Source: Streptomyces zinciresistens K42 (GTDB lineage: Bacteria; Actinomycetota; Actinomycetes; Streptomycetales; Streptomycetaceae). Taken from it: a stretch of DNA of 64,000 bases. Positions 7,811 through 28,193 of the stretch are shown here, one piece after another. Numbering within the stretch: the first letter of the stretch is position 1; every line of letters begins with the position of its first letter. The position numbers and the translations under genes are program-made. The DNA is taken from NCBI RefSeq assembly GCF_000225525.1, contig NZ_AGBF01000022.1:1-64000 (forward strand), written 5' to 3'. Below the pieces are notes generated by a model. The model saw only the letters and a program-made list of their open reading frames with translations. It had not been told where the DNA came from and ran no database searches.

Positions 7811-8584
7811 TCAGCCGGCGGCGGCCTGCTCCACCATCTGCTTGAGCTTGGCGGGCGTCATCGTCTGGTCCTGGTAGATGTTCTTGCCGTTCAGCAGGAC
7901 GGTGGGGGTGCCGCTGAAGCCGCCCTTCTGGAACGCCTCGGCGGACTTCTTGACCCAGCCGCTGTGGGTGCCCTTCTCCACGCACCGCCGGAAGGCGGGC
8001 GTGTCGAGGCCCTGGACCTTGCCCGCCAGCTTCAGCAGCGTGCTGTTCTCGGCGAAGGCGTCGTCGGTCTCCGGGGGCTGGTTGCGGTAGAGCACCTCGT
8101 GGTACTGCGGGAACTTCCCGACGTCCTGGGCGCAGGCGGCGGCGTTGGCCGCGTTGTGCGAGCCGTTGCCGCCCATGTTGCCGTCGATGATCGTCGCAAG
8201 GTGGTACTCGACCTTGAGCTTGCCGGCGTCGGTCAGCTCCTTGACCGTCGAGCGGTACGCGTCCTCATAGGCCCGGCAGGCCGGGCAGCGGAAGTCCTCC
8301 CAGACCGTGAGCGTCGACTTGGCACTCTCCTTGCCCACCGGGATCGCGAGGCCGTCCTTGCCCTGGGCGCCCGAGGGGCCGACGACCGGACCGGCGTCGC
8401 TGCCGCCGTCCTTGCCCGCGTTGGCCGCCACGACGCCGATCACCGCCGCGAGGCCCAGTACGCAGACGACGCTGGCGCCCACGATCAGCGCACGGCGCCG
8501 CTTGTCGGCGGCCTTCTGCTTCTCCCGCTCGACCGCCAGCCGCTCGCGGGCGGTCCGCTTCCCGTCACGATTCTTTTCGCTCAC
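7811..8584 (-). CDS. Membrane-anchored DsbA-family thioredoxin-fold protein
   Basis: 257 aa from the GTG at 8584 (VSEKNRDGKRTARER). A basic cytoplasmic N-terminus is followed by one membrane segment (about residues 31-52) and an extracytoplasmic thioredoxin domain. That domain has the redox motif CPAC in WEDFRCPACRAYED and the cis-Pro loop in SGTPTVLLNG. The family oxidises or isomerises disulfides in exported proteins. An in-frame ATG at 8638 would add 18 residues, but that stretch is a perfect hairpin, so I prefer the GTG. No strong Shine-Dalgarno is visible before either start. A second paralogue lies at 37.1 kb. Confidence 0.85.
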   Translation of the reverse strand: MSEKNRDGKRTARERLAVEREKQKAADKRRRALIVGASVVCVLGLAAVIGVVAANAGKDGGSDAGPVVGPSGAQGKDGLAIPVGKESAKSTLTVWEDFRCPACRAYEDAYRSTVKELTDAGKLKVEYHLATIIDGNMGGNGSHNAANAAACAQDVGKFPQYHEVLYRNQPPETDDAFAENSTLLKLAGKVQGLDTPAFRRCVEKGTHSGWVKKSAEAFQKGGFSGTPTVLLNGKNIYQDQTMTPAKLKQMVEQAAAG

Positions 8585-8727: not shown

Positions 8728-9532
8728 GCACGCCCTCGGCCAGCTCGCCCGCGAGCGCGCGGACCGCCTCGACGCCCGCCGCCTCGTCGGGCGCGTCCAG
8801 CATCCGCTTGACGAAGGCCGAACCGACGATGACGCCGTCGGCGAAGCCGGCGACCTCGGCCGCCTGGGCGGCGTCGGAGACGCCGAGCCCGACGCAGACG
8901 GGCAGCGGGCTGCCGGTGGCGCGGGTGCGCTCCACCAGGTCCTGCGCCTGGGCGCCGACAGACGCGCGGGTGCCGGTGACCCCCATCAGGGAGGCCGCGT
9001 AGACGAAGCCGCTGCCCGCCGCGGTGATCTTCGCGAGCCGTTCTTCCCTGCTGCTGGGCGCCACGACGAAGACCGTCGCGAGCCCGTGCTTGTCGGCGTG
9101 CTCCCGCCACAGGGCCGACTCCTGGACCGGCAGGTCGGGCAGGATGCATCCGGCGCCGCCCGCCTGCGCGAGCTCCGCGGTGAAGCGCTCGACGCCGTAG
9201 CGGTCGACGGGGTTCCAGTACGTCATCACGAGGATCGGCTTGCCGGTGGCCTCGTACGCCTCGCGGACCGTGCGCAGGACGTCGGCGATCCGGACACCGC
9301 CGCGCAGGGCGATGTCGTCGGCGGTCTGGATGACGGGGCCGTCCAGGACGGGGTCGCTGTGCGGCAGCCCGACCTCCACGACGTCGGCGCCGCCGTCGAG
9401 GGCGGCCCTGACCGCCGCGATGCCGCCGTCCACGGTCGGGAACCCGGCCGGGAGGTAGGCGATGAGCGCCGCGCGCCCCTCGGCCTTCGCGGCGGCGAGG
9501 GTGTCGCTCAACAGCTGGATGGTGCCGCTCAC
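8714..9532 (-). CDS. trpA: Tryptophan synthase alpha chain
   Basis: 272 aa TIM barrel that cleaves indole-3-glycerol phosphate to indole and glyceraldehyde-3-phosphate. Seen are [13 protein letters not shown], the catalytic region [18 protein letters not shown] (here the Glu-Val-Gly-Leu-Pro form), [11 protein letters not shown], and [10 protein letters not shown] with the second catalytic Asp. The GTG start overlaps the trpB stop (GTGA), so the alpha and beta subunits of the complex are translationally coupled. The C-terminal RRRA lies in a 16-bp tandem repeat. Confidence 0.97.
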
Positions 9533-10815
9533 TTGGCGTCCCCCTCGATCTCGGCGGCGTCGGTGTCCGCGTCGGCCGCGACCTCGGCGTCGGTGTCGTA
9601 CAGGCCGAAGTAGCGTGCGGCGGTGTCCATGTCCTTGTCGCCGCGGCCGGACAGGTTGACGACGATCAGGCCGTCCTCGCCCAGCTCCCTGCCGACCTCC
9701 AGGGCGCCGGCGAGCGCGTGGGCGCTCTCGATCGCCGGGATGATGCCCTCGGTGCGCGACAGCAGGCGCAGTGCCCGCATGGCCGCGTCGTCGGTCACCG
9801 CGCGGTACTCGCCGCGGCCGCTGTCCTTGAGGTAGGAGTGCTCGGGGCCGATGCCGGGGTAGTCCAGGCCGGCCGAGATCGAGTACGGCTCGGTGATCTG
9901 GCCCTCGTCGTCCTGGAGGACGTAGGAGCGCGAGCCGTGCAGGATGCCGGGTTCGCCCGCGGTCAGGGTGGCCGCGTGCTCACCGGAGCCGATGCCGTGC
10001 CCGGCGGGCTCGCAGCCGATGAGGCGGACGTCCGCGTCGGGGATGAAGGCGTGGAAGAGGCCGATGGCGTTGGAGCCGCCGCCGACGCAGGCGACCGCCG
10101 CGTCGGGGAGGCGGCCGGTGCGCTCCAGGAGCTGGCGGCGGGCCTCGACGCCGATGACGCGGTGGAAGTCGCGGACCATGGCCGGGAAGGGGTGCGGGCC
10201 GGCGACCGTGCCGAAGAGGTAGTGGGTGCGGTCGACGTTGGCGACCCAGTCGCGGAACGCCTCGTTGATGGCGTCCTTGAGGGTGCGGCTGCCGGACTTC
10301 ACGGCGACGACCTCGGCGCCGAGCATGCGCATACGGGCCACGTTCAGGGCCTGGCGCTCGGTGTCGATCTCGCCCATGTAGATCGTGCAGTCGAGGCCGA
10401 ACAGCGCGCAGGCGGTGGCGGTGGCGACGCCGTGCTGGCCGGCGCCGGTCTCGGCGATCACCCGGGTCTTGCCCATCCGCTGGGTGAGCAGGGCCTGGCC
10501 GAGCACGTTGTTGATCTTGTGGGAGCCGGTGTGGTTGAGGTCTTCCCGCTTCAGGAAGATCCGGGCGCCGCCGGCGTGTCCGGCGAACCGCGGCACCTCG
10601 GTGAGGGAGCTGGGGCGGCCGGTGTAGTGGACCAGCAGGCCGTCGAGCTCGCGGGCGAACTCGGGGTCGTGCTTGGCCTTGTCGTACTCGACGGCCACCT
10701 CGTCCACGGCGGCGACGAGCGCCTCCGGGATGAAGGTGCCGCCGAACGCGCCGAAGTAGCCCTCGGCGTCGGGGACCCGGCCCTCCGGGTCGGGGATGAA
10801 GAACTCGCTGGGCAT
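9529..10815 (-). CDS. trpB: Tryptophan synthase beta chain
   Basis: 428 aa PLP enzyme joining indole and serine to make tryptophan. The PLP lysine is in [11 protein letters not shown]. The phosphate-binding [15 protein letters not shown], and [10 protein letters not shown] are canonical TrpB features, and [11 protein letters not shown] is at the expected N-terminal place. It follows trpM after a 59-base gap and overlaps trpA by four bases. Confidence 0.97.
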
Positions 10816-25884: not shown

Positions 25885-25912
25885 CGCACCACCTCTGGGG
25901 AGACCGGCCGCC

Positions 25913-26413
25913 ATGGCGAAGAAGTCGAAGAAACAGCAGTCCGCGGGGACGCCCGCGACCGTCGCGCTCACCGCGGCGGGCGTCGCGTTCACGGTCCACT
26001 CCTACGACCACGACCCCGCCCACCCCTCCTACGGCGAGGAGGCCGCCGAGGCGATGGGCGTCTCGCCGGACCGCGTCTTCAAGACGCTGGTGGCGGACGT
26101 GGACGGCGCACTGACCGTGGCCGTGGTCCCGGTGGCGGGCCGGCTGGACCTCAAGGCGCTGGCCGCCGCCGTCGGCGGCAAGCGGGCCGCGATGGCCGAT
26201 CCGGCCCTCGCCGAACGCGCCACGGGCTACGTCCTCGGCGGCATCTCCCCGCTGGGCCAGCGCAAGCGGCTGCCCGCGGTGCTGGACTCCACCGCCTCCG
26301 GGCACGCCACGATCTGCGTCTCGGCGGGCCGGCGCGGCCTGGAGATCGAGCTGTCCCCCGCGGACCTGGCCGCCCTCACCGGCGCGGTCCTCGCTCCCGT
26401 CGGCCGTGCGTGA
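25913..26413 (+). CDS. ybaK: Cys-tRNA(Pro)/Cys-tRNA(Cys) deacylase
   Basis: 166 aa YbaK/EbsC-type trans-editing enzyme, which removes Cys wrongly loaded on tRNA-Pro. Seen are PDRVFKTLVADVDG with the key Lys, GKRAAMADPALAERATGYVLGGISP with the GGISP loop, and STASGHATICVSAGRRGLEIELSPADL. The Lys-rich start MAKKSKKQQ is usual for actinobacterial copies. Confidence 0.92.
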   Translation: MAKKSKKQQSAGTPATVALTAAGVAFTVHSYDHDPAHPSYGEEAAEAMGVSPDRVFKTLVADVDGALTVAVVPVAGRLDLKALAAAVGGKRAAMADPALAERATGYVLGGISPLGQRKRLPAVLDSTASGHATICVSAGRRGLEIELSPADLAALTGAVLAPVGRA

Positions 26414-26417
26414 ACTC

Positions 26418-26446
26418 TCGACGGCGGGGGTGTCCCCGGTTAAGTA
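26418..26446 (+). promoter_or_regulatory. Candidate promoter of the bL37 gene
   Basis: TCGACG (26418-26423) and TAAGTA (26441-26446) are 17 bases apart, close to the vegetative sigma consensus. The expected start of RNA is within a few bases of the ATG at 26455. Confidence 0.4.
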
Positions 26447-26454
26447 CGGGGGAC

Positions 26455-26529
26455 ATGTCGAAGAGAACACGGAAGCGCAAGTGGCGCACCAGGAAGGGCC
26501 GCGCGAACCACGGACGCCGCCCGGCGTGA
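26455..26529 (+). CDS. Probable 50S ribosomal protein bL37 (24 aa)
   Basis: 24 codons: MSKRTRKRKWRTRKGR followed by ANHGRRPA. Length, extreme Lys/Arg content and the terminal ANHG-[KR]-RP pattern match bL37, the tiny actinobacterial large-subunit protein first seen in mycobacterial ribosome structures. GGGGGAC lies just before the ATG, a promoter-like pair is upstream and a perfect hairpin follows 8 bases after the stop, so it looks like a free-standing mini-gene. It is easily missed by gene callers. Confidence 0.75.
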   Translation: MSKRTRKRKWRTRKGRANHGRRPA

Positions 26530-26537
26530 GGCACCCC

Positions 26538-26568
26538 CGCCCAGGGGGCCGGCCGTGTCCCCTGGGCG
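26538..26568 (+). terminator. Terminator of the bL37 gene
   Basis: A perfect 10-bp stem (CGCCCAGGGG and complement) with an 11-base loop, followed by TTCCCC. It lies between bL37 and the convergent membrane-protein gene ending at 26579. Confidence 0.7.
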
Positions 26569-26578
26569 TTCCCCGGCG

Positions 26579-27334
26579 TCAGCCCAGCGGCGCGCCGTAG
26601 GGGTCCTTCGCCTGCCCCTGAGGGGGCTGCTGCGGGAACGGGTCCGGGTCGCGCGGGCCGAACAGCGCGGTCAGCCCGAGATGCGCCACCAGCGCGGCCA
26701 GCGGCCAGGCGAGCCAGGCCCCCTTGGCGCCGAGCTTGAGCGGCGCGGAGAAGGTGACGCCCTTGCCGACGTCCTTGGCGCGGGCCACGACGTCCTGGGC
26801 GGGTCCGAGCCACACCCCGACCCGCCAGGCCAGCAGGGACCCGAGGAACCCTCCGACGGCCAGGGCCACCACGAGCGGGACACCGCCGCGGCGCCGCCAC
26901 AGGAAGACCGCGAGCGCGCTGAGCAGCCCGAAGCCGAGCGCGAGCAGAGTGAACGTTCCGTCGACCCCGACGGCCTGCTCGCCCTCGGAGTCCTTGAGGT
27001 AGACGACCCAGCTCTTGTCGACGACGTCCCCGACCAGCGGCACGCTCGGCGCCAGCCACCACCACAGGACACCGAGGAGCGCCCCGAAGACGGCCACCGC
27101 CACCATGACCACGGCGGCCTCGCGCACTTCGGTCTTCATGCCGGGACCGTCCTGTCGGGACGAGCCGTACACGCCGTACGGCCCGGGAGGACCGTACGGG
27201 TCCCGGGCACCGCTCGGAGCGTCGGACAGGGCGTCGTACGGCCCGGCTGCCGGGTACCCGGCAGCGGGCTGCTGCCACCCCCCGTCGGGGGACGGTTCAC
27301 GCGGCGGGGGTGGAGGAGTCAGCGGAGCGGTCAC
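26579..27334 (-). CDS. Membrane protein with Pro/Gly/Tyr-rich N-terminus (DUF2567-like)
   Basis: 251 aa from a GTG at 27334. About 65 residues of low-complexity sequence (PPPPPREPSPDGG, repeated YG/PYG) precede four membrane segments (about 73-95, 125-145, 150-172 and 200-220). An extracytoplasmic loop after the first helix has WWWLAPSVPLVGD. The helix pattern and WWWLAP motif recall the actinobacterial DUF2567 family, but I am unsure of the assignment. It lies just downstream of an ABC exporter on the same strand and may be co-transcribed. Confidence 0.75.
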   Translation of the reverse strand: MTAPLTPPPPPREPSPDGGWQQPAAGYPAAGPYDALSDAPSGARDPYGPPGPYGVYGSSRQDGPGMKTEVREAAVVMVAVAVFGALLGVLWWWLAPSVPLVGDVVDKSWVVYLKDSEGEQAVGVDGTFTLLALGFGLLSALAVFLWRRRGGVPLVVALAVGGFLGSLLAWRVGVWLGPAQDVVARAKDVGKGVTFSAPLKLGAKGAWLAWPLAALVAHLGLTALFGPRDPDPFPQQPPQGQAKDPYGAPLG

Positions 27335-27368
27335 CCTGCCATCGTGCCAGGCCGACCTGTGCGGCGCG

Positions 27369-28193
27369 TCACCGGACGGCCGCCCGGCGGTACGCCCAGG
27401 TGGCCACGGCGAGCGAGACGACGCCGACCGCCGCGCACACGGCGAGGTCGCGCAGGACCAGCGCCCATTCGGGCCGCGCGCCGAACGTCCGGGCGAACGC
27501 CTCCACGCCGTACGTCGACGGCAGCAGGTCCCGGGCGAAGCGGACCGCCTCCGGCATCCGGTCGGCGGGCAGCACACCCAGCAGCAGCGCGGCGGACATG
27601 CCCAGCTGGCCCAGGAGCGTCGCCAGTTCCGGCCGGGGCGCGAGCAGGCCCAGGGCGGCGCCCAGCCCGGCGAGCGCGGCGCCCGCGAGCGGGATCACGG
27701 CGGCCAGCACCCACAGCTGCGCCACCGGCAGCCCGAACAGCGCGGACCCGAACAGGGCCGTCACCACGGTCCCCGGCACGGTGAAGGAGGCGTACGCCCC
27801 GGCCGCGCCCAGCACCACGGCGGCGGGCGGCACCGGCAGCGTGGCGTAGTGGTCGAGGCCGCCGCTGGCGCGCAGCTGGCCGAAGTACTGCGCGAGCAGG
27901 TTCAGCGCGACGAAGGCGACCACGAGCACGGACGAGCCGGCCACCACGGTCCGCGCCTCGGCCCCGCCGTCGACGACCCCGCGCATCAGGATCATGATCC
28001 CGACGGACTGGAAGGTCGCCACGAAGAGCAGCGGGATCCGCGCGACCCTCGCCCGGGACAGCTGCGCCCGGTAGACGGCGCACAGCGACGGCCACAGCCG
28101 CGCGCGCGGCCCGAGCTCGGCCATGGCCGCCCGGGACGGCTCGTCCGCGGCCAGGGCGCTGCCCGGCAGAACCTCGGCGGGTACGACACTCAC
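27369..28193 (-). CDS. ABC-2 type transporter permease
   Basis: 274 aa, GTG start. Six hydrophobic segments fit an ABC-2 (export) permease. LWPSLCAVYRAQLSRARVAR precedes the first helix, and QYFGQLRASGGLDHYATLPV is the typical cytoplasmic loop of YadH/NatB-like exporters. It pairs with the ATP-binding protein encoded 82 bases upstream. The substrate is unknown; drug or lipid export is common in the family. Confidence 0.9.
   Translation of the reverse strand: MSVVPAEVLPGSALAADEPSRAAMAELGPRARLWPSLCAVYRAQLSRARVARIPLLFVATFQSVGIMILMRGVVDGGAEARTVVAGSSVLVVAFVALNLLAQYFGQLRASGGLDHYATLPVPPAAVVLGAAGAYASFTVPGTVVTALFGSALFGLPVAQLWVLAAVIPLAGAALAGLGAALGLLAPRPELATLLGQLGMSAALLLGVLPADRMPEAVRFARDLLPSTYGVEAFARTFGARPEWALVLRDLAVCAAVGVVSLAVATWAYRRAAVR

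Follow-up and report, generated by a model that had tools for sequence, protein, structure and literature searches.

A W-type bL37-like mini-gene beside ybaK in Streptomyces, with a promoter-like element in a predicted hairpin

The window analysed here, 64,000 nucleotides of Streptomyces zinciresistens K42 (contig NZ_AGBF01000022.1, positions 1 to 64,000), contains an ORF of 24 codons between two convergent genes. A first-pass annotation took the product to resemble the ribosomal protein bL37 and placed a promoter-like pair before the ORF and a terminator after it. The locus raises the question of whether so short an ORF is a gene, whether its product is a ribosomal protein, and how it might be expressed. 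The ORF (26455..26529, + strand) lies where that annotation had put it, extends from an ATG at 26455 to a TGA at 26527-26529, is conserved in relatives and encodes MSKRTRKRKWRTRKGRANHGRRPA. We refer to this peptide and its relatives as W-type, after a tryptophan at residue 10.

Conservation of the mini-gene and its relation to bL37

A profile built from 14 relatives identified the protein in 51 of 150 genomes of the genus (E ≤ 4.9e-10; loose prefilter, at most 57 candidates scored per genome). In an order-wide profile search, 60 of 197 genomes matched at E ≤ 0.001; 57 of these are from the same genus, one with a partial match (G317), and the three outside the genus match more weakly. Of 305 pattern matches among GTDB contigs, 183 encode a relative, and 80 of these were looked at by name: 79 carry a Streptomyces title and the remaining one is called 'Actinobacteria bacterium'. 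As the 80 named loci were chosen by the pattern MSK[KR]TRKR[KR], conservation of residues 1-9 among them is by construction; the 134 loci used below were chosen by another motif, of which Trp-10 and HG.RP are part. The first-pass annotation had made its case depend on the 24 codons being conserved in related genomes, and this conservation is present.

Fifty distinct full-length genes from the profile search give a pN/pS of 0.207 for codons 2-24 and 0.211 for codons 10-24 alone. In the two other reading frames the ratios are 1.8-2.0. By this measure the mini-gene is under purifying selection, and it is almost certainly a real gene. An ORF arising by chance in a G+C-rich intergenic region would be in keeping with the shortness of the mini-gene and with the other ORFs that overlap it in several frames, but the difference in ratio between frames and a truncated W-gene remnant, still recognisable in one genome, both argue to the contrary; this explanation is ruled out by conservation and purifying selection and retains virtually no credence. 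Scanning the window for Rfam families and tRNAs gave no matches.

The W-type peptide has the length (~24 residues), the Lys/Arg-rich composition and the NHGxRP tail of a bL37. Against the NCBIfam bL37 model (NF047428) the window peptide scores 27.2 bits, below the equivalog cut-off of 30, and two other W-type peptides score 23.8 and 20.8; with the whole type below the curated naming model, it has probably been missed in annotation. Two of three bridging peptides exceed the cut-off, namely a sister-genus form with the same Trp, MSKRTRKRSWRRRKANHGRRPNCR (32.9 bits), and a form from another family of the order, MSKKTNKRRARRRRKANHGRRPA (30.9 bits), and the third scores 25.7. Since the sister-genus form with Trp passes the cut-off, we read the W-type as a divergent bL37 variant outside the NCBIfam equivalog. 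The best match of the window peptide to PDB sequences has an E value of 0.16, and each of the five hits obtained is either a bL37 or an unnamed small chain that aligns to bL37; a W-type profile matches solved bL37 chains at E 0.0053, versus 1e-9 for a canonical-type profile. On these comparisons the mini-gene very probably belongs to the bL37 family in the broad sense, so that the resemblance first noted stands as a relationship, but to a divergent type that falls short of the family cut-off. No report of Streptomyces bL37 types was found in literature searches for bL37 as a ribosomal protein or with Streptomyces, and the word 'bL37' does not occur in the available main text of the S. lividans re-annotation paper (PMC8079986).

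Of the 51 profile-found proteins, 49 have the signature Trp-10; the genes at L157 and L159 have Gly and Arg, respectively, in its place. N18, H19, G20, R22 and P23 are invariant in all 81 W-type loci, and all 51 profile-found proteins retain the NHGxRP tail. Position 12 is the most variable (T/V/I/L/M/A) and Thr-5 is invariant. The suggestion that Trp and Thr substitutions in the middle of the peptide are lineage-specific is thus borne out for the Trp, a group signature, but not for Thr-12.

A stable address and three types

The mini-gene follows a ybaK-type gene with an aminoacyl-tRNA editing domain (25913..26413, + strand; Pfam PF04073, E 2.1e-24), and the 41 nt from the ybaK stop to the mini-gene ATG is the commonest of 128 measured spacings. 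Downstream lies a convergent DUF2567-like gene (26579..27577, - strand, start codon uncertain; Pfam PF10821, E 0.0019), which at 18.7 bits is below the family cut-off of 30. This arrangement recurs. A YbaK homologue is present at 80 of 81 W-type loci and is upstream on the same strand in 79, the exceptions being L195, in which ybaK is downstream on the other strand, and L247, which is cut by a contig end. A DUF2567-like homologue is present at 76 of the 81 and in 73 lies downstream, no more than 630 nt separating its near end from the ATG. By blastn, 31 of 33 upstream flanks and 30 of 32 downstream flanks of the usable W loci cluster together, four atypical loci of the 37 having failed the motif and been excluded. 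The C- and S-type loci introduced below (L115-L140 and L044-L073, respectively) have scattered neighbourhoods: the upstream flanks of 25 C loci fall into 10 clusters and those of 30 S loci into 20, numbers that are upper bounds because blastn was used with a 200 nt minimum.

In all 20 genomes chosen as lacking the W-type, the ybaK and DUF2567-like genes face each other with no W gene between them. At L328, a 5′-truncated W-gene remnant, IKKGRSNHGRRPA, which has lost the promoter and the first half of the gene, is situated between these two genes. W-type presence requires at least 13 changes on a tree of YbaK from 131 loci with and 21 loci without the W-type; the tree is rough because it is built from a single short protein. 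An address common to the W-type and the bL37 of other groups was considered and rejected, as 11 of 12 bL37 genes have no YbaK homologue within up to 8 kb on each side. The exception is L331, from another family, in which a canonical bL37 gene (8001-8072) lies ~1.4 kb from a YbaK homologue (9437-9922) on the same strand.

One reading of this patchy presence, taken together with the very basic composition, is that the peptide derives from bL37 and has left the ribosome, for example as a cationic antimicrobial or another RNA-binding peptide, and the C. acnes bL37 is described as inhibiting Gram-positive bacteria in the available part of PMC10085706. Such a departure seems improbable to us given the invariant NHGxRP tail, the lack of a secretion signal visible by eye and the stable address beside housekeeping-type genes.

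Two further types were recognised in Streptomyces, represented by the C-type sequence MAKRGNKRRARKKKKANHGKRPNA (47.8 bits to NF047428) and the S-type sequence MSSKRRRKKKARRKNGANHGKRPQS (34.5 bits). Both have the tail motif of the W-type and neither has Trp-10. With cut-offs of our own choosing (S ≥ 40 bits, C ≥ 49 bits, W E ≤ 4.9e-10), applied after the loose prefilter, the W-, S- and C-types are present in 51, 54 and 26, respectively, of the 150 genomes of the genus. C and S never occur together, S and W do so in 20 genomes and C and W in three; W is alone in 28, and 42 genomes have none of the three. By these searches, some Streptomyces species carry closer relatives of bL37 than the W-type, at times beside it, and the 42 genomes without any type suggest that part of the genus can do without bL37. 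In a search across the class, 157 of 246 genomes match at E ≤ 0.01, 151 of them from outside the genus, and 149 of these 151 have a single match. The W-type does not show this one-copy, widespread pattern, being patchy (51 of 150 genomes) and occurring together with another type in 23. A search with a DNA pattern for ANHGxRP fits this picture of types, matching 101 of the 150 genomes versus 20 by our count for a reversed control. Some S copies are near contig ends of near-complete genomes, 30 kb from the end in G005 and 59 kb in G031.

In the genome of the window, W is the only type found. Protein, family and profile searches gave no other good match for a second bL37 in this genome; the weak hits (E 1.05-1.79, and one at E 0.049) do not resemble bL37, and an additional match to the ANHGxRP pattern (C263:3826) is not within a Lys/Arg-rich mini-ORF.

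Upstream regions also differ among the bL37 types. Many of those of the C- and S-types have a Shine-Dalgarno-like stretch, judged by eye. Upstream of C-type genes, inspection by eye also showed that a CTAGACT-like box recurs, together with a TGCGG stretch and then a leader with GGGAG; this looks like a different conserved promoter.

The W-type could be an accessory isoform that, where an S- or C-type is also present, replaces it in some ribosomes under certain conditions, the exchange changing the pocket near the peptidyl-transferase centre. Consistent with this, 23 of the 51 W-bearing genomes also hold an S-type (20) or a C-type (3), Trp-10 and a different tail distinguish the W-type, and upstream regions vary between the types; but the other 28, the window's among them, show no other type, so that W would be the sole bL37 there. 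We regard the accessory role as unlikely, if less so than a departure from the ribosome. The preferred reading, that the W-type is a 50S protein in its own right, is consistent with the NHGxRP tail common to all the bL37 types here, which probably places it in the same 23S pocket, and we consider it quite likely that the peptide is present in 50S subunits.

Promoter-like element, predicted start hairpin and downstream repeat

The promoter-like pair consists of a -35-like CTCGAC (26417..26422, + strand; the hexamer TCGACG is at 26418-26423) and a -10-like TAAGTA (26441..26446, + strand), giving TCGACG-N17-TAAGTA when counted from the hexamer. The -10-like box ends 8 bases before the ATG and lies in and beside the loop of a predicted hairpin. 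The string CT[CG]GAC-N18-TA precedes 67 of 81 W loci (shuffled mean 0.05), and the broader T[CTG][GT]AC-N18-TA precedes 114 of 134 (0.5 expected, as the shuffled mean), leaving 20 without it. The N18 spacing is kept while the distance from the element to the ATG spans 12 to 52; it is 14 in 78 of the 114 loci, 12-13 in 16 and 24-52 in 20. In the 48 loci with the geometry of the window, the TA of the -10-like box is present in 48 of 48, this geometry being defined by TA, and the sixth base is A in 48 of 48. The box is therefore TAnnnA and not TAnnnT, and a generic scan of 25900-26800 called no consensus sigma-70 promoter. In S. lividans, according to the available text of PMC8079986, 17% of transcripts are leaderless, the distance from the -10 box to the RNA start averages 6.3 nt (range 4-9), and the last T of the -10 box is present in 97.4% of leaderless promoters. 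An ordinary principal-sigma promoter would carry the final T of TAnnnT, and its absence here speaks against one. Within the window genome, CTCGAC-N14-CGGYTA was found 14 times, versus 8 for a reversed control, and no regulon is concluded from this.

An RNA start 6-8 nt after TAAGTA would be within 3 nt of the ATG, giving a predicted leader of 0-3 nt, and the RNA of the mini-gene is likely near-leaderless in the window species. The proximity of the start codon to the expected RNA start, proposed initially, fits the position of TAAGTA. The companion proposal, that GGGGGAC might serve as a ribosome site, is disfavoured, as this stretch varies among the 48 relatives of the same geometry (GAGGGAC, CGAGGAC, AAGGGGC and others) and forms one arm of the hairpin.

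This hairpin (26430..26456, + strand; predicted fold -17.1 kcal/mol) would be full only in RNA that reads through from upstream. Its stem pairs 26430-26437 with 26449-26456, with two inner pairs (26439-26440 with 26446-26447), so including the A and U of the AUG. In the window its z score is -2.85, with 2 of 200 dinucleotide shuffles folding at least as well; the 48 loci sharing this geometry have a mean z of -2.02 and the remaining 33 one of -1.48, where control stretches inside ybaK give 0.03 and -0.20, respectively. Where a Shine-Dalgarno-like stretch is present, 10 of 34 loci have a hairpin z below -2, and the median pairwise upstream identity of these ten is 0.44, though four are nearly identical. 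Some leader-bearing loci, L204 and L234 among them, have their Shine-Dalgarno stretch covered by an arm, with up to 17 bp, and L279 has a similar energy. Arms also fit their own partners better than those of other loci, at -9.03 versus -7.88 kcal/mol in 86 leaderless-like loci and -24.64 versus -21.82 kcal/mol in 18 leader-bearing loci (0 of 300 permutations each), and at 5.70 versus 4.90 with a simpler stem score (0 of 1000), in permutations that ignore the relatedness of the species. Covariation in a fixed register was not above column shuffles (64.4% paired versus 64.3%; score matched by 40 of 500 shuffles). The 33 loci at 80-200 nt from ybaK have no clearly structured 32-nt stretch, with a mean z of -0.38 before the ATG and -0.44 after the ybaK stop.

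Loci with ybaK at a distance or not upstream show weaker pairing (p 7e-4, 104 versus 9 loci; in further comparisons p 0.017, 121 versus 7, and p 0.0035). The far sets differ between tests, the nine of the first including three in which ybaK is not upstream and the second having seven; from the set of nine, L150 was dropped, having no promoter match, and L247 and L293 were excluded. These tests were not blind, as L191, L249, L268, L195 and L251 had been inspected by eye beforehand, and the far or non-upstream loci are not phylogenetically independent (6 changes), with an independent-pairs test speaking neither for nor against a link to distance. Pairing energy correlates with ybaK distance with the opposite sign (Spearman -0.26, p 0.004), a correlation in which the rule used probably put the -10 box of some leader-bearing loci in the wrong place; for z the value is 0.12, not significant.

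We propose tentatively that the start hairpin filters out read-through RNA. Dyad symmetry over a -10 box is also the usual position of operators, and the dyad might be an operator or a terminator of ybaK instead, an interpretation to which we give comparable, similarly limited weight. The negative result in a fixed register agrees with either, and a ybaK terminator would also account for the weaker hairpins at loci with ybaK distant or not upstream. Against this interpretation, the arms differ among species yet stay complementary, no T-run follows the hairpin, and at L204 and L234 one arm lies over the Shine-Dalgarno stretch.

Downstream of the mini-gene and before its convergent neighbour there is a perfect 10-bp inverted repeat (26538..26568, + strand), CGCCCAGGGG / CCCCTGGGCG, with arms at 26538-26547 and 26559-26568 and an 11-base loop. 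The sequence that comes after it, TTCCCCGGCG, has no T-run, and the scan of 25900-26800 called no T-tailed terminator on the + strand, so that 'perfect terminator' overstated what is a perfect repeat. Perfect arms of at least 7 bp are found within 120 nt after the stop at 40 of 80 loci versus 19 of 80 in shuffled sequences (one shuffle each).

Proposed role and comparison with known systems

As a whole, the locus is best explained, and with reasonable probability, as encoding a Streptomyces-type variant of 50S bL37. The W-type peptide would sit in the H39/H40/H72/H89 pocket near the 5S tip, serving as the bL37 of the window species. Less securely, its RNA would start within 0-3 nt of the AUG, and RNA reading through from ybaK may fold so as to cover the start codon, or in other species the site at which the ribosome binds. 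Translation of the mini-gene would then depend mainly on RNA made from its own promoter, the RNA of the neighbour perhaps not being translated into the mini-gene.

The distribution of the types points to a ribosomal protein near the peptidyl-transferase centre that comes in more than one type and is not universal in Streptomyces. More speculatively, and in our estimate improbably, streptomycetes might use bL37 as a swappable ribosome part, with C, S and W isoforms often moved or lost and W the one at a stable address, guarded by a promoter within a hairpin that blocks read-through. If so, the isoform would tune the pocket of H89, the peptidyl-transferase centre and 5S, and perhaps affect tolerance, in these antibiotic producers, to antibiotics that bind there. 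If confirmed, a promoter within a hairpin would provide a simple test of how a tiny ribosomal gene is shielded from the transcription of its neighbour.

A hairpin over the start region, like that predicted in the window, is known for phage T4 I-TevI, soc and e (PMC2988022) and for B. subtilis sigG (PMC5942855). In the available parts of these reports, the promoter is inside the hairpin, which blocks translation of read-through RNA and cannot be formed by transcripts from the gene's own promoter. The window differs in that pairing over the start region in read-through RNA is a prediction (z -2.85), the gene's own transcript would be leaderless and the gene is ribosomal-protein-like. For the peptide, the best family match and the best PDB match are both to the bL37 of Mycobacterium smegmatis, M. 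tuberculosis and Cutibacterium acnes (NF047428; PDB chains such as 5o60_3, 7kgb_v and 8crx_V), which, in the available text of PMC5876184 and PMC10085706, has a ~13-residue N-terminal helix and occupies a pocket of H39/H40/H72/H89 in the 50S subunit. The W-type shares with these proteins a length of 24 residues, a Lys/Arg-rich N-terminal part and the NHGxRP tail. It differs from them in Trp-10, in one residue more before ANHG and one fewer after it (RRPA, not KRPNA), in a score below the equivalog cut-off, and in having its own address and its own promoter-like element.
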